Of a stretch of 36,510 bases of DNA, positions 17,312 to 34,908 are shown piece after piece (the first letter of the stretch is position 1; every line of letters starts with the position of its first letter). A model generated the notes under the pieces. The model was not told where the DNA came from, ran no database searches, and saw nothing but the letters and a program-made list of their open reading frames with translations. The DNA comes from a virus. Both the position numbers and the translations under genes were made by a program. Location: positions 1 through 36,510 of IMG/VR virus record IMGVR_UViG_3300037296_000140; one strand, given 5' to 3'.

Positions 17312-19129
17312 ATGGCACATTCCACAGATACGATTGATCATGCAAGACTGCTTTATATCCGCGCGCACAAACCAGCGGAGATAGCGACACGTCTAAACGT
17401 GAGTGAAAGGACGGTTTACGGTTGGATTGATAAATTCAATTGGAAAGAATTACTGGCTTACGACACGGCAGAAATAGAAGTCAGCCGACGCATTAGCACG
17501 CTAACGAACCGCGAGAATAAAACTAAAGAGGAAGTGCAAGAGCTTACTTCTCTGTGTCGTATTTTTGGCAGTTTAAGACAGGACCTAGCCAAAGCCGAAA
17601 AAATTGTGGCCGAGGCCAAAGCCATTGCCGATGGCAAACCGGAAGCCGTAGAAGGCGCTGTCAATCGCGGCAATCGTCGTGGCAATAGCAAAAGAAAAGC
17701 CAAGGCAAAAAATGACATCAGCGGTATTGATATTGGGCTCTTTGATACATGGGCTCATGAAAACCTTTTCGAATACCAAAAGCTTTGGCGAGCGGTGGCG
17801 CACGATCCCGACCTTTGCCGAAATCGCTTTATCTTAAAAAGCCGCCAAATCGGCGCCACCTATTATTTCGCATGGGAAGCCTTCGAGGACGCGGTTAAAA
17901 ACGGCGATAACCAAGTATTTCTATCCGCCTCGAAAGACCAAGCACGTATTTTCAAAGGCTATATTCAAGCCTTCGCCCGCGCTCAATTCGATATCGAATT
18001 AAAAGGCCAAGACAGCATAGAGCTTTATAAAGACGGCAAACTATGGGCAACTCTGTATTTCTTATCGACGAATTCCAGCACGGCGCAGGGCTACAACGGC
18101 CATCTATATGTAGATGAAGTATTTTGGATTCATGGCTACGCCAAATTACAAAAATTGGCGTCTGGTATGGCCTCACAGAAAAAGTGGCGTCGCACGTACT
18201 TTTCTACGCCGTCCAGTTTGCAACACCCCGCTTATGAGCATTGGAGCGGTGCGAAATTCAATAAGAACCGATCCCGTAAAGTGGATATTGATCTATCCGA
18301 AAAAGTGCTTAAACAGGGCGCGCTTGGTGGCGACAAAATATGGCGCCATCTTGTTACCGTGGAAGATGCAGAAAAAGCCGGTTGCACGCTGTTCGACATT
18401 GCAGAACTCAAAGCCGAATACAGCAAGGCGGATTATGAAAACCTATTTGGTTGTAAGTTTGTTGATGATAACGAAAGCGTATTCCCGTTCTCGACGTTGC
18501 AGAAATGTATGGTCGACGCGTTTAGTAAATGGACAGACGTGGATTTTGACAGTGACAATCCAAGCCGCAATAGACCAGTGGCGATTGGTTACGATCCGTC
18601 ACGGATTCGAGACAACGCCGCCTTGGTGGTGTTGGAAATCCCTATCAGCCACGCGCAAAAATGGCGCGTGATTGAAACTGTTCAATTTAAAGGCGAAACA
18701 TCAGAATACCAAGCCGCAAGAATCGCCGAATTTTACCAGCGTTATAACGTGAAATGGTGCGGCATTGATGTGACCGGCATAGGTTACGACACATTCGATT
18801 GCTGTAACGCTCTACGTCTAAAACACATCATCCCCATTCATTATTCCGTCGCCGAAAAAACCGACCTGGTAACACGCGCGAAACGATTAATAGACGGCGG
18901 GCGCTTTGAATATGACATGGGTAATAAAGACCTATCTCAATCTTTAATGATGATTCAACAAATCACCACACAAAACGGCTCTATTACTTATGGCGCGCCC
19001 CGCAGTGGTGAAACAGGCCACGCGGATTTAGCGTGGGCGTCATTTCACGCAATGCAAGCCGAACGACAATATAACAAATCGAAACAACCCGAGAAGAAAA
19101 CCAGCGGATCACGCGTTTCTATTGGATAA
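17312..19129 (+). CDS. Terminase large subunit, ATPase (gpP-like)
   Basis: 605 aa, packaging motor. N-terminal helix-turn-helix (residues 10-45: AEIATRLNVSERTVYGWIDK). ATPase domain from about 145: Walker A region FILKSRQIGATYYF with Lys176, Walker B LYVDEV with Asp268-Glu269, a coupling-motif region TYFSTPSS near 295. Nuclease domain from about 420, with VAIGYDPSRIRDNAALVV as the first acidic patch (Asp428) and GETGHADLAWASFHAM near the end. P2 gpP is 590 aa. First gene of the plus-strand block. It is followed after 17 bp by a shortened, altered copy of its ATPase domain. Confidence 0.93.
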   Translation: MAHSTDTIDHARLLYIRAHKPAEIATRLNVSERTVYGWIDKFNWKELLAYDTAEIEVSRRISTLTNRENKTKEEVQELTSLCRIFGSLRQDLAKAEKIVAEAKAIADGKPEAVEGAVNRGNRRGNSKRKAKAKNDISGIDIGLFDTWAHENLFEYQKLWRAVAHDPDLCRNRFILKSRQIGATYYFAWEAFEDAVKNGDNQVFLSASKDQARIFKGYIQAFARAQFDIELKGQDSIELYKDGKLWATLYFLSTNSSTAQGYNGHLYVDEVFWIHGYAKLQKLASGMASQKKWRRTYFSTPSSLQHPAYEHWSGAKFNKNRSRKVDIDLSEKVLKQGALGGDKIWRHLVTVEDAEKAGCTLFDIAELKAEYSKADYENLFGCKFVDDNESVFPFSTLQKCMVDAFSKWTDVDFDSDNPSRNRPVAIGYDPSRIRDNAALVVLEIPISHAQKWRVIETVQFKGETSEYQAARIAEFYQRYNVKWCGIDVTGIGYDTFDCCNALRLKHIIPIHYSVAEKTDLVTRAKRLIDGGRFEYDMGNKDLSQSLMMIQQITTQNGSITYGAPRSGETGHADLAWASFHAMQAERQYNKSKQPEKKTSGSRVSIG

Positions 19130-19146
19130 CCAAGGGGAAATTAATC

Positions 19147-19875
19147 ATGAAAAACAAGATAGACCATATCACCAGCGAATCATTAAACGAATGGGCAGAA
19201 AAGAACCTTTTCCTATACCAATTATTTTGGCGCCAAAAGCGCCAACACCACACGCGCTTTATCAACGCATCCAGAATGATTGGCACGACTCATCACTTTA
19301 TTACTGAAGCATTTGAAAACGCGGTAAACAGTGGTGTAAATCAATTCCTTTTCGCTCAGTCTTTTAGATTTTGCGAACACCTTTGCGAACTCATCACCCA
19401 ACATGCAAAGCGTGAATTTTCCGCCACTTTGGAATACACAATACCCGATAAAGATGCGCCTTTTGTCTTAACCCTCACAAAACACGGCCAACCATGGGCA
19501 AGCTTTTACTTCATTCACCCAGACGCTTTGCAACACCCGTCTTATGCTGCATTAAGCGGCGATTGTTATATTGATCAAGTGTGTTATATCGACAATTTCA
19601 CCACGATTCTAAACATTGCCAAGGTCATTTCTTGTCACACACGACACCGCCTAACGCTGGTTAAAACCGGTGATTGGCTTGATGGCCCCGCGCGGGATCT
19701 TTGGAACAAAAACAGCCTTTACACCTGGCACCACACGCTAACCGTGGAAGATGCCACTCACATGGGTTGCGACCTAATCGACATTCCCACACTCAAAGCC
19801 GAACTTACCGAAGCCGACTATAAGCGCCTCTTCCTCTGTGAATTTATCACTCAAGCACCGATTCAGGACAATTAA
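19147..19875 (+). CDS. Degenerate terminase ATPase-domain paralogue (pseudo-ATPase)
   Basis: 242 aa; AAGGGGA ribosome site 9 bp before the ATG. It aligns over most of its length with residues about 146-384 of the terminase just upstream: WAEKNLFLYQLFWR with WAHENLFEYQKLWR, ITEAFENAVNSGVNQFLFA with AWEAFEDAVKNGDNQVFLS, TLTVEDATHMGCDLIDIPTL with LVTVEDAEKAGCTLFDIAEL, EADYKRLFLCEF with KADYENLFGCKF. The catalytic residues are lost: Walker A Lys176 is Ala41 (FINASRMIG), and Walker B Glu269 is Gln144 (CYIDQV). There is no nuclease domain. The frame is intact, has its own start, and ends 2 bp before the portal start, so it is probably made. Possible roles: structural partner or regulator of the motor, or an interference factor. 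Function unknown. Confidence 0.85.
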   Translation: MKNKIDHITSESLNEWAEKNLFLYQLFWRQKRQHHTRFINASRMIGTTHHFITEAFENAVNSGVNQFLFAQSFRFCEHLCELITQHAKREFSATLEYTIPDKDAPFVLTLTKHGQPWASFYFIHPDALQHPSYAALSGDCYIDQVCYIDNFTTILNIAKVISCHTRHRLTLVKTGDWLDGPARDLWNKNSLYTWHHTLTVEDATHMGCDLIDIPTLKAELTEADYKRLFLCEFITQAPIQDN

Positions 19876-19877
19876 TC

Positions 19878-20969
19878 ATGACGACCATTGAAAAACCACG
19901 CCAACGATTAGACAGCTCATACACCAGCACGGCTTCCGGTGTACTCATGCCCGCCGATCCGAAAAAAGGCAACTCACATGTGTTCACCTTTGGCGATCCA
20001 GAACCCGTATTAGGTAGCAATATTGCCGATTATTTAGGCGTTTTTGCCGATTCGAACGGGTATTGGTATGTTCCGCCCGTTAGTCTGGTTGGTCTAGCAA
20101 AGACGATGAATGCGAACGGCACCCATGCCAGTGTGTTGGAATTCAAACAAAATCAGCTTTTAGCCAGTTTCAAAGACAACCCGATGATTTCACGATCTCA
20201 AATACGCCACGCGTTTAAAGATTTCGAGGTGTTCGACAACGCCTACCTCTTAACGATCCGTAACTTTTTAGGCGGCATTAATCGTTATGTGCACTTACCC
20301 GCTATTAATGTTCGCGTGGGCACGGAAAACAATTATTTTCTACTTCAATCAAACGGCTCTTTCACCGAATACGCCGCCGCCGACATCATCCACTTAAACG
20401 GCGGTGATATCCGTCAAAGCATGTATGGCGTTCCGACTTACTTTGCGGGAATTAACAGCATTATGCTTGGCGAATCGGCCACGCTATTCCGTCGTAAGTA
20501 TTACGATAATGGGGCGCATACTGGCTATATTCTATTAACCTTCGACCTAGAAGACGACAAAGCCGAAGACATAGAAAGCGCCATGAAACAATCAAAGGGC
20601 CCTGGCAACCATCAATCTATGTATATCAATATGCCCGCCAGCGTGAACGGCAAACCGGGCTTCATGAAAGACCGAGTTCAATTGATCCCCGTTGGTGACT
20701 TTGGCAACCGTGACGAATACGACAAGATCAAAGAAATCACGCAGCAAGACATTCTGAACATGCACCGAGTACCCGCAGGACTTGCCAGCATCATGGCAAA
20801 CAACGCCGCAGGGCATGGGGATTTAAAGAACGTTCGTGAGGTGTATTACGACTGTGAAACCATCCCCAAACAAGCAATCTGGCAGGAACTAAACGACCAA
20901 TTACTAACACGGGCTAAAATTGGCTTTAACGATCCGCGCTGGTTGGTCGATGTAAAGGCGAATAAATAA
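19878..20969 (+). CDS. Portal protein (gpQ-like)
   Basis: 363 aa, P2 gpQ family (344 aa). It forms the twelve-subunit ring at the capsid vertex through which DNA enters. Typical segments are PVSLVGLAKTMNANGTHASV, LASFKDNPMISRSQIRHAFK, FRRKYYDNGAHTGYILLTFD and IMANNAAGHGDLKNVREVYY, the last being the family end signature. The ATG follows the pseudo-terminase stop by 2 bp. In P2, gpQ is the partner of gpP and both are transcribed together, as here. Confidence 0.93.
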   Translation: MTTIEKPRQRLDSSYTSTASGVLMPADPKKGNSHVFTFGDPEPVLGSNIADYLGVFADSNGYWYVPPVSLVGLAKTMNANGTHASVLEFKQNQLLASFKDNPMISRSQIRHAFKDFEVFDNAYLLTIRNFLGGINRYVHLPAINVRVGTENNYFLLQSNGSFTEYAAADIIHLNGGDIRQSMYGVPTYFAGINSIMLGESATLFRRKYYDNGAHTGYILLTFDLEDDKAEDIESAMKQSKGPGNHQSMYINMPASVNGKPGFMKDRVQLIPVGDFGNRDEYDKIKEITQQDILNMHRVPAGLASIMANNAAGHGDLKNVREVYYDCETIPKQAIWQELNDQLLTRAKIGFNDPRWLVDVKANK

Positions 20970-20971
20970 CT

Positions 20972-21697
20972 ATGCTGAATTTCAACAAAGGTTTATTCAA
21001 TGTTTTTGGTTCTAGTAACGCATTTCAAAGTGCGACCATGAGCAAAGCCACGGCCACCAATGGCCAATGCGGCACACTACGAGCGCGGCTTGATAAATAC
21101 TTACCCGTTGAAGGTGAAACCATTGTTGATCCAACATTACCCAACGCCACCAAGGTGACGAATTGCCAAACCGCGTTAGACAATTACGGCACCGGTGCGA
21201 ACACGCTAAACGCCCATGTACAAACGCGACTTGATTCGTTGCTGGATGACATGCAAGTGGCGAGCGCCGTTAAGTCGGTAGACAGTTACATTAGCGATGT
21301 ACCCGAAAGCTGTTACAACATCAACACGATTGCGGGCACCGCCGCCGGTGCAACGGACGGTTTATTAGCCGCTTCCACGGACATACTAAACGAACTAGAC
21401 CAAGGCATTACCGCATTTGATGGCAGCACCATGGAACTGGAAGATTTTGAAGCTTTGTTAGATAGGGTTACCGCTGAACTTGCCAGTAACTTGGTGGCGA
21501 TTTTAGGGATGATCAGTAACGAGGCGAGCATGGTTCAAAACATGTATGACACCCACATGCGCATGGCGAAATCGTTTAAAGTTTCCGCCTTGATAGATGA
21601 CCCGTGTGTAAGGCCGTTTTTGGTAAGATTGGCAGGGCCAGAACTTAGCGCCGTGCTGGTTAGTGACTTTGGTGTGGATGATTTGGAAGGGCTTTAA
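20972..21697 (+). CDS. Unknown protein downstream of the portal
   Basis: 241 aa. It is 2 bp after the portal stop and co-directional. Predicted mostly helical from about 140 on (AASTDILNELDQGITAFDG, LEDFEALLDRVTAELASNLV). It has five cysteines (for example NGQCGTL, NCQTAL, ESCYNINT, DDPCVRP), a high number for a structural protein of this phage. No transmembrane segment and no known motif are seen. A virion or packaging-accessory role follows from operon position only. It ends just before the first copy of the 28-bp boundary repeat. Confidence 0.75.
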   Translation: MLNFNKGLFNVFGSSNAFQSATMSKATATNGQCGTLRARLDKYLPVEGETIVDPTLPNATKVTNCQTALDNYGTGANTLNAHVQTRLDSLLDDMQVASAVKSVDSYISDVPESCYNINTIAGTAAGATDGLLAASTDILNELDQGITAFDGSTMELEDFEALLDRVTAELASNLVAILGMISNEASMVQNMYDTHMRMAKSFKVSALIDDPCVRPFLVRLAGPELSAVLVSDFGVDDLEGL

Positions 21698-21703
21698 ACG
21701 GTC

Positions 21704-21731
21704 AATATTTAAAAACGTGACGTGTCACGCT
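21704..21731. repeat. 28-bp boundary repeat, copy 1
   Basis: AAT-ATTT-AAAAA-CGTGAC-GT-GTCACG-CT pattern; 27 of 28 positions match the other three copies at 22247, 24534 and 24830. The arms CGTGAC (21716-21721) and GTCACG (21724-21729) are inverted around GT. Here it lies between the convergent ends of the 20972 gene and the HNH nuclease gene and contains the nuclease stop codon. Read on the minus strand the arms are followed by five T. Confidence 0.9.
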
Positions 21732-22225
21732 TTTAATCCATATTTCACCAACACCCTTTTAAAGCGCGCTTTGTACTGCTCTATGTTTTTAGGTGGTAAC
21801 CATTCATCTAATCCCTTTGCGCCTTTCTGCCTGTTCAGTCTTACTTCGACGGCCACTAGGTTTATCGGATCATTGGCAAACTGTTTGCGCTTCTCTTTAC
21901 TCCACTCATTCGCCCCGTGATCCCATGCCCATTTCAATGGCACGATGTGGTCTATGTCTAGCTTGGCCGCATCAAATATCACTTCACCGGAATACATAGA
22001 AATCCAACGACCAAAAACGACGCGACATTGCTTGTCTGTATTGAATCGAACTGGCGCGGTAGACATTGAAATAAGAATCTCTTGGCGGGTGTTTTGGCAA
22101 TCGCGGTCAATATCCGCCCAGCCGCTACCAAATTCACTTCGCTTGTATTTCGTCACGCCTGCGAGCGCATTACCCGCTATCAATAACGACAATACAAGAC
22201 ACACCAAGACACGTGTTTTTTTCAT
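21725..22225 (-). CDS. Secreted HNH/DUF1524-type nuclease
   Basis: 166 aa. Signal peptide: MKKTRVLVCLVLSLLIAGNA with a probable cut after LAGNALA (about residue 22). The mature part has an HNH-like centre LDIDHIVPLKWAWDHGANEW (His at DH of IDHIVP), followed by NDPINLVAVEVRLNRQKGAK, where the Asn-rich part completes the beta-beta-alpha metal motif as in DUF1524/GmrSD-type and related endonucleases. Two Cys (DRDCQNT and KQCRVVF) could form a disulfide in the periplasm. The gene sits between two copies of the 28-bp repeat and is opposite to its plus-strand neighbours, as expected for a lysogenic-conversion gene. Role inferred: periplasmic DNA degradation, possibly against incoming phage DNA. Confidence 0.8.
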   Translation of the reverse strand: MKKTRVLVCLVLSLLIAGNALAGVTKYKRSEFGSGWADIDRDCQNTRQEILISMSTAPVRFNTDKQCRVVFGRWISMYSGEVIFDAAKLDIDHIVPLKWAWDHGANEWSKEKRKQFANDPINLVAVEVRLNRQKGAKGLDEWLPPKNIEQYKARFKRVLVKYGLKA

Positions 22226-33533: not shown

Positions 33534-34616
33534 TCACTTCTCCCACTTATAACGAACTCTACAATGATGTTCTTGATATGTTAAATAACCCTTACGCTGG
33601 AGCCTTCCAGTTACTATTCCTGGATGAACCCCCTGCTTTTCAGCAAACTCTACAATATCATCTATACAAATAAGCCCTTTGGCTAAGAAAGAATCAAAAG
33701 CCACACTCGGCATTAATGTTTCTTGAGAAAATTCATCTGCTTCATCCTCTTGTTTTCTATATTCTTCGCTAACTCCACCTTCTAAAAAGGTAAGCCTTTT
33801 ATCATGCAAAAGAATATGGGCGATTTCATGAAACAAGCTAAACCAAAAAATATCAGCCCATCCGCCCCTCATTGACATCATTACCACTGGAGTCCTTTTG
33901 TCATGCCAAAAAGTTGCCCCCGTTATATATGTCTTTGGATAGTGAGGAATAGCTACAAATAACACTCCACACGAATTCAGATATTCTCTAATCTTTCTTA
34001 GTATTTCATTCGGATCACTCAAAAGGCTCAGGGCGCGAACATCTGGTATAACACTGAGCAATTCTGCTTTATTAAATCCCCCAACCTTTTGCTTTAATGC
34101 GATATCCGTTCCTGTTTTCAGCCATGCAGCTATCGCTTCTTGGCTAGCCGACTCCTTTTCTAATGCTCGAAAAGCTGGCTCATATTCCTTTACAGACTTT
34201 ATACTTAACAAAGAAGCAACACCGAAGAATTTTCTAAGGTTCTGAACTTTTTGTATAGCGCTTCTTGTTTTTTCAACTACTCCACGCTTACTCATCTCTA
34301 AGTACGGATAGCGCTCTAACAAACTAACTTCTTGCTCTATTTCCTTCTTTTCTTTTTGTTTTGCTAACGCGAGTCTATAAATCGACTCCATATTAGTCCA
34401 AAACTGGGCTGACACACCGAGCACTTTCTCAAGTTGAAGCGCGGTTTCCGGTGTAATAGCTTTATCACCTTTGATTATTTCGTTAATTGCCTGATATGGA
34501 CGCCCCATTCTATTAGCTAAATCAACCTGACTTATTTCCATATCTTCCAGCACTTCGCCCAGATAACTACCTGGTGGAACAGCCAAATCTGAATTGATTT
34601 TTTGTTCAGCCATCAT
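33534..34616 (-). CDS. higA: HigA-type antitoxin fused to ImmA/IrrE-type peptidase domain
   Basis: 360 aa. N-terminal HigA domain: VPPGSYLGEVLEDMEISQVD, then LANRMGRPYQAINEIIKGDK with AITPETALQLEKVLGVSAQF, residues 13-75. C-terminal ImmA/IrrE-type zinc peptidase domain with FSLFHEIAHILLHD (HExxH as His263-Glu264-Ile-Ala-His267) and QEDEADEFS providing the third ligand. A spare ATG at 34613 shortens it by one residue. It overlaps the toxin gene by 11 bp. The antitoxin part neutralises HigB and represses the operon; the peptidase part may respond to a stress signal. Long forms of this sort are known in HigA families. Confidence 0.88.
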   Translation of the reverse strand: MMAEQKINSDLAVPPGSYLGEVLEDMEISQVDLANRMGRPYQAINEIIKGDKAITPETALQLEKVLGVSAQFWTNMESIYRLALAKQKEKKEIEQEVSLLERYPYLEMSKRGVVEKTRSAIQKVQNLRKFFGVASLLSIKSVKEYEPAFRALEKESASQEAIAAWLKTGTDIALKQKVGGFNKAELLSVIPDVRALSLLSDPNEILRKIREYLNSCGVLFVAIPHYPKTYITGATFWHDKRTPVVMMSMRGGWADIFWFSLFHEIAHILLHDKRLTFLEGGVSEEYRKQEDEADEFSQETLMPSVAFDSFLAKGLICIDDIVEFAEKQGVHPGIVTGRLQRKGYLTYQEHHCRVRYKWEK

Positions 34617-34908
34617 AATGCTTACTCACTTCCTCAATATTAGCAATTTGCAATTCATCCCCATCAAGAGTAAATATAAGCCTCATATACCCTGTGAGAT
34701 TAATAGCGTATTGCCCTTCTCTATTTCCACTTAGTTCATGACACCTGATCACTGGCAGACGTTTCAATTCATCAATGCTACTTGTAGATTTGATAATATT
34801 GATTCTACTAATGTACTTCTCAGCTACAATGTCACCGAACTCTCTAACTCCCTTTGAGTGCGTTTCATAACACTTTTGAAGTTTATTTTTTTTAAATGTT
34901 ACTTCCAC
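34606..34908 (-). CDS. higB: HigB-type toxin, RelE superfamily
   Basis: 100 aa from a GTG at 34908, with AAGGAA 8 bp upstream. HigB pattern: KNKLQKCYETHSKGVREFGD, KRLPVIRCHELSGNREGQYA, INLTGYMRLIFTLDGDELQI. HigB cleaves mRNA on the ribosome. Toxin precedes antitoxin, as usual in higBA. It helps keep the prophage in the population and may stop growth on phage attack. Confidence 0.88.
   Translation of the reverse strand: MEVTFKKNKLQKCYETHSKGVREFGDIVAEKYISRINIIKSTSSIDELKRLPVIRCHELSGNREGQYAINLTGYMRLIFTLDGDELQIANIEEVSKHYDG

Follow-up and report, generated by a model that had tools for sequence, protein, structure and literature searches.

A probable pseudo-ATPase paralog of the large terminase subunit between the terminase and portal genes of a P2-like phage

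Organisation of the terminase-portal locus

The stretch of DNA analysed here (36,510 bp, hereafter the window) is the record of a P2-like phage, in which the gpO scaffold, the gpN capsid protein, the gpM small terminase, tail genes, the gpA replication protein and an integrase were all recognised. Three genes are placed in a row and divergent from gpO: the gene encoding the large terminase subunit gpP (TerL), a gene encoding a paralog of its ATPase domain, and the gene encoding the portal protein gpQ. Any free-standing paralog of the TerL ATPase domain, in this phage or elsewhere, is called PAR in what follows.

The TerL gene (17312-19129, plus strand, as are all features of this locus) encodes a gpP-type large terminase of 605 amino acids with an N-terminal HTH, an ATPase and a nuclease domain (Terminase_5; Terminase_6N, E 2.9e-48; Terminase_6C, E 1.2e-24), and its AlphaFold model (pLDDT 83.9) matches terminases. 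The portal gene (19878-20969) encodes 363 amino acids and was recognised by Phage_portal (2.6e-12) and phrog_68 (2.1e-98). The PAR gene (19147-19875, 242 amino acids, ATG start) begins 17 nt past the TerL stop at 19129 and ends 2 nt before the portal ATG at 19878. The spacer and leader in front of it (19130-19146) carry a probable ribosome site, AGGGGAAATTAATC, before the ATG, which is similar to the leader of the portal gene, CAGGACAATTAATC. A 12-bp direct repeat, AATTAATCATGA, with only two copies in the window, spans the PAR start codon (19139-19150) and, 731 bp further, the portal start (19870-19881). The base composition by codon position is like that of the neighbouring genes. An earlier sequence-only reading of this DNA had described an intact frame that has a ribosome site and lies 2 nt before the portal gene, and this description held.

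Immediately after the portal gene lies a gene for a DUF7217 protein (5e-64; 20972-21697, plus strand), and also downstream, in the phage accessory region, a small ORF with a GmrSD_C/HNH-type endonuclease domain (3e-14; 21725-22225, minus strand). Near the integrase, a gene for an HTH and Peptidase_M78 protein (33534-34616, minus strand), which matches PADLOC PD-Lambda-2_B at 2.4e-40, is overlapped by an ORF of 100 amino acids (34606-34908, minus strand); the two are a possible phage-borne defence or toxin-antitoxin module.

Homology, domains and predicted fold

The window PAR starts at about TerL residue 133 and aligns with the TerL of its own phage over residues 133-384, with 32% identity (BLASTP, 119 bits, E 6e-35), which agrees with the earlier statement that the product matches the ATPase region along nearly its whole length. 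In the profile searches that the sequence-only reading had proposed, the protein matched Terminase_6N (E 5.6e-06, 26.6 bits, above the curated cut-off of 22) and phrog_3746, a terminase large subunit family (E 5e-36). Neither the RNaseH-like nuclease Terminase_6C nor the N-terminal HTH Terminase_5 was found in it by Pfam, although both are present in the window TerL; the nuclease domain is indeed missing. No match was obtained in PADLOC or, by sequence alone, in the PDB.

The structure was predicted with AlphaFold2 from an alignment of 54 rows made of PARs and TerL ATPase domains. The model (pLDDT 90.4, pTM 0.89) shows disorder only in the last five residues, and its best PDB matches in Foldseek are terminase ATPase domains, namely those of P74-26 (4znk, E 4.9e-8), D6E, T4 gp17, Sf6 and HK97, the same terminases that are matched by the model of the window TerL. 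The terminase fold anticipated for the protein was thus recovered. When it is set against solved ATPase domains (P74-26 4znk, D6E 5oea, T4 gp17 2o0h/3cpe, Sf6 4idh), the fold agrees (Foldseek E from 5e-8 to 1e-5) at 12-17% identity; the catalytic residues of these four terminases are intact, unlike those of the window PAR. With P2-type gpP (Terminase_5/6N/6C) it has the ATPase fold and core residues in common, but it lacks the HTH, the nuclease domain and an intact active site. T4 also makes shortened forms of its TerL, gp17, alongside the complete enzyme, by use of internal starts; these are, however, products of the same gene and not of a separate diverged gene. We are highly confident that 19147-19875 encodes a real pseudo-ATPase protein.

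Equivalent genes in other phages

The sequence-only reading knew of no described P2-type phage with such a gene, yet equivalent genes are present in the same slot in phiO18P and in two Yersinia phages. A tblastn search against named phages found two TerL-matching places in Aeromonas phage phiO18P, one of them phiO18_21 (ABG73173), a "truncated terminase ATPase subunit" of 257 amino acids between terL and the portal gene. In scans of IMG/VR, 10 of 57 close Aeromonas-type TerL loci carry an intact PAR, phiO18P included. Like the window PAR, phiO18_21 and its counterparts on the nine further contigs consist of the ATPase domain only, with the same boundaries and in the gpP-portal slot, and they show active-site and coupling-motif changes and a sporadic presence. 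Unlike it, phiO18_21 is 63% identical to the TerL of its own phage, belongs to a separate clade next to Aeromonas TerL and has lost Arg178.

The Yersinia phages vB_YenM_201.16 and vB_YenM_56.17 (UNA05963, UNA05908) carry in the gpP-gpQ gap a gene annotated as a further "terminase, ATPase subunit", again an ATPase-only TerL paralog, but one broken at other positions (Thr183 to Asp, and Asp268 to Ser, Gly or Pro). Relatives of this type are L277, L278 and L288-L292, and no match to its DNA was found in E. coli genomes. Among 395 genomes surveyed from the order to which genome G006 belongs, further intact PARs were seen in G796, G724 and G464, the last of Aeromonas type and with the same protein as contig L110; G796 led on to five virus contigs with a PAR and to the two Yersinia phages. 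Damaged or partial copies of the TerL ATPase domain were also seen in two sampled genomes (G677 and G704; L282, 1483-1962, and L283, 1258-1830), with IN and SE at Walker B, which suggests that PAR-type genes also decay.

The window, Aeromonas and Enterobacterales genes thus occupy the same slot, with near-identical start and stop context. The window PAR has the traits of the phiO18P and Yersinia kind, being an ATPase-only gene that abuts TerL and portal, with invariant residues lost and the frame intact. On another P2-like contig an ORF of about 200 amino acids (L029, 6692-7315) lies between TerL and portal and has a DPPWP motif, like DNA N6-adenine methyltransferases; accessory genes may therefore settle in the TerL-portal gap more generally.

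The paper on the Yersinia phages mentions "terminase subunits" and nothing more on the gene (PMC9224151), and none of the papers searched discusses a pseudo-ATPase paralog of terminase. The gene class appears to be unrecognised, although annotated members exist.

Loss of active-site residues

Both catalytic replacements that had been read from the sequence were confirmed in an alignment with 57 TerLs. The Walker A lysine Lys176, invariant in all 57, is replaced in the window PAR by Ala41 (codon 19267-19269), and the Walker B glutamate Glu269, equally invariant, by Gln144 (19576-19578). Gln179 is changed to Met and His305 to Gly, and the Ser-Thr-Pro-Ser coupling motif (TerL 298-301) has become Lys-Thr-Gly-Asp (19663-19674), with Ser298 replaced by Lys and Pro300 by Gly. 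Arg178, Gly181, Thr183, Asp268 and Thr299 are retained.

The other families are changed elsewhere. The Enterobacterales PARs have Thr183Asp (7/7) and Ser, Gly or Pro in place of Asp268 (7/7). All the Aeromonas PARs have Ser177Ala, Arg178His and Pro300Leu or Val, and most of them retain the Walker A lysine and the Walker B glutamate. One Aeromonas PAR (L115, 6818-7588) additionally has Lys176Gln and Glu269Gln, at the same two positions as in the window, while its relatives retain both residues; it looks like a case of active-site loss in progress. As judged from these alignments, the active site has been lost by a different route in each family, and every family lacks at least one TerL-invariant residue that, by analogy with the T4, P74-26 and D6E terminases, would be needed for hydrolysis.

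Seven conserved positions (210, 214, 253, 259, 305, 308 and 391) are changed in all three families, and the window and Aeromonas PARs have ten changed positions in common, which is above chance (P 0.0097). Changes are not enriched in the catalytic motifs relative to other conserved positions (Fisher p 0.77, 0.73 and 1.0), so that the pattern also fits a general loosening after duplication and is by itself no proof of selection for deadness.

Among the residues kept is Arg168 (codon 19648-19650), which corresponds to TerL Arg293, is located just before strand beta-4 according to the models and is retained in every compared PAR. The trans-arginine finger of the D6E terminase is also located just before beta-4 (PMC5727402), and with this arginine a PAR could, by analogy, sit in the ring and serve its neighbour. 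The retention is weak evidence, since 22 of the 65 conserved columns are retained in all PARs. A trans-finger at the position of P74-26 R139 was considered and rejected: by counting from Walker B, the conserved Gln259 of P2-type TerLs, which is changed in all PARs, would lie at about that place, and it was for this reason that Arg293, in the alpha-3/beta-4 loop as in D6E, was considered instead.

Origins

In the tree, the Aeromonas PARs form one clade beside the Aeromonas TerLs, and the Enterobacterales PARs another (support 100/100) among the TerLs of Enterobacterales and other proteobacteria. One common origin of all PARs was rejected, as a single clade of Aeromonas and Enterobacterales PARs is not compatible with the data (AU p 8e-6); these two families have independent origins. 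The branch of the window PAR, with about 3.5-4.4 changes per column, is too long to be placed: neither its grouping with the Aeromonas PARs (p 0.18) nor with the Marinomonas TerLs (p 0.49) was rejected. The window PAR probably represents a third origin.

The window PAR carries 10 of 29 residues specific to Marinomonas-type TerLs, such as WAxxNLFxYQ and an inserted KxGxxWAxxYF, against 0 to 5 for the other TerL clades, which makes derivation from the TerL of its own phage lineage the likelier story. At Ser205, His305 and Tyr308, which vary little or not at all among TerLs, the window and Aeromonas PARs have the same replacement (Ala, Gly and Arg, respectively), and these common changes may reflect convergence or hint at an older shared history. 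The earlier description of the gene as a tandem copy is accordingly plausible as regards its origin, but with 32% identity the copy is not a recent one, and close relatives of the phage are without it.

Presence, absence and exchange between phages

The nearest relative of the window phage (L006) lacks a PAR, although its TerL and portal are 96% identical as protein and 91.5-91.9% as DNA. The two flanks of the window gene overlap on the same 18 bp of this relative, and the difference is thus a clean 731-bp indel between the AATTAATCATGA repeats. It had been asked whether related phages keep the gene between P and Q; the 14 Marinomonas-type relatives that have both flanking genes do not (0/14), and the gap to the portal is at most 18 bp in all of them. 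Searches with back-translated patterns gave no close relative of the window PAR in viral or genome contigs, and in 49 Marinomonas-family genomes, searched in six frames, all that was found were full-length TerLs.

In Aeromonas phages the insertion point of the PAR gene is precisely the ATGA in which the stop codon of TerL and the following start codon overlap. One phage may have the gene and another lack it although their TerLs are 99% identical, and the Aeromonas TerL tree (57 loci, 10 carriers) requires at least six changes in presence. In the genus of G796 a short copy lies beside TerL in 3 of 25 genomes, while others with the same TerL type are without it. For many pairs of phages the dS of the PARs is far below that of the TerLs (0.018 against 0.25 for L071 and L087), which means that the gene is exchanged between phages. 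None of the TerL or portal alignment columns separates carriers of PAR cleanly from non-carriers, and the strongest associations come from a subgroup of carriers that are related to one another and from extensions of the frame ahead of the portal start.

Selection

The sequence-only reading held that the gene looks selected and not decaying, and proposed that dN/dS be computed. The median dN/dS of the Aeromonas PARs is 0.17 (0.125-0.33), whereas the ATPase domain of TerL in these phages gives 0.047, and the Enterobacterales PARs give 0.11-0.33 where dS is measurable; the PARs of both groups are thus under purifying selection. The statement can be upheld for these analogous genes, but the window copy, single and without a close relative, is shown as intact only. 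Selection on it would be in keeping with its predicted fold and with its frame, 242 stop-free codons having a chance of 5e-6 in random sequence of the same base composition.

Proposed role and alternatives

There is, in our judgement, about an even chance that PAR is an accessory, catalytically dead mimic of the TerL ATPase domain, in which the fold was kept and the catalytic residues were not. Since the genes abut, PAR would be co-translated with its two neighbours, TerL and portal, as part of the late operon. It would be incapable of ATP hydrolysis and would act as a mimic that takes up the binding partners of the TerL ATPase domain, in the first place other TerL subunits. The isolated ATPase domain of the D6E TerL is able to form pentamers (PMC5727402) and the T4 motor keeps running, although less efficiently, when one to three of its subunits are dead (PMC9958956), so that an inactive ATPase domain produced next to TerL could join TerL rings. 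That PAR acts through mimicry of the TerL interface we hold to be somewhat more probable than not.

Since sister lineages package their DNA without PAR, its job would be optional, and most likely one of interference, as a poison subunit or decoy against a competitor, a satellite or a terminase-sensing defence; fine-tuning of the phage's own motor would be less likely. Possible targets include the use of TerL by a co-infecting phage or satellite, and the receptors Avs1-4, which sense TerL and portal. If mimicry is granted, we lean towards such a role in conflict. That the gene is optional, exchanged and faster-evolving, and that no TerL or portal residues co-adapted to it were found, is more in keeping with an accessory gene used in conflict than with a fixed part of the motor, and the data on presence, absence and exchange favour the accessory role. 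Against the mimic reading it counts that a mimic which joined the phage's own motor would slow it, so that a partner specificity must be assumed.

The alternative in which PAR serves the phage's own motor as a specialised subunit without catalytic activity, standing in the TerL ring, offering its arginine in trans and tuning speed or processivity, is in our view unlikely. The alpha subunits of F1-ATPase, which are non-catalytic, would be its model; the retention of Arg293 in all PARs, placed before beta-4 like the finger of D6E, while the cis residues were lost by different routes, and the co-translation expected of adjacent genes agree with it. But the gene is absent beside a 96% identical TerL in relatives of the window phage and a 99% identical one in Aeromonas phages, no co-adapted TerL or portal residue was found, and PARs are without the nuclease domain, which grips the DNA. 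Somewhat less probable still is a decoy against terminase-sensing immunity, that is, a dead, nuclease-less ATPase domain that occupies receptors of the Avs1-3 type without triggering them. PAR sits between exactly the two genes whose products, TerL and portal, are recognised by Avs1-Avs4 (PMC12931631), its model is similar to the PhiV-1 terminase in the structure with Avs3 (8dgc, Foldseek E 1.3e-3), and its sporadic presence, its exchange and an evolution faster than that of TerL are what one would expect of a gene directed against defences; the likeness to 8dgc, however, is that of the fold common to terminases, and each of the three PAR genes could have some other purpose.

We also give little credit to a decaying duplicate without function. 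The higher dN/dS of PARs, the many TerL-invariant residues missing from the window copy and the damaged or partial copies in sampled genomes (L282, L283) would be expected of it, but the window frame is intact after about 3.5-4 substitutions per site, its predicted fold is confident and complete, and in two other lineages there is purifying selection, with exchange between phages. That the window gene is an assembly chimera of its virus record, as its single copy without close relatives in viral or genome collections might suggest, is very improbable indeed: both flanks are collinear with the nearest relative at 91.5-91.9% around a clean repeat-bounded indel, the composition at the three codon positions agrees with that of the adjacent genes, and the same gene is found in the same slot in unrelated phages.

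Implications

TerL is among the most conserved proteins of tailed phages, and bacterial immune receptors are directed at it. A dead form of its ATPase domain that has arisen at least twice, and probably three times, in the same slot, and that is selected and mobile, points to a function hidden under the annotation "terminase". We put forward only tentatively the broader idea that P2-like phages have repeatedly and independently made a dead mimic of their packaging ATPase, carried in an exchangeable terminase-portal cassette as a weapon or shield and forming a recurrent, unrecognised class of pseudo-enzymes. PAR would provide either a natural means of probing how packaging rings cope with inactive subunits or a new strategy against satellites or defences. 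Short genes annotated as "terminase" in phage genomes may, moreover, encode something else.
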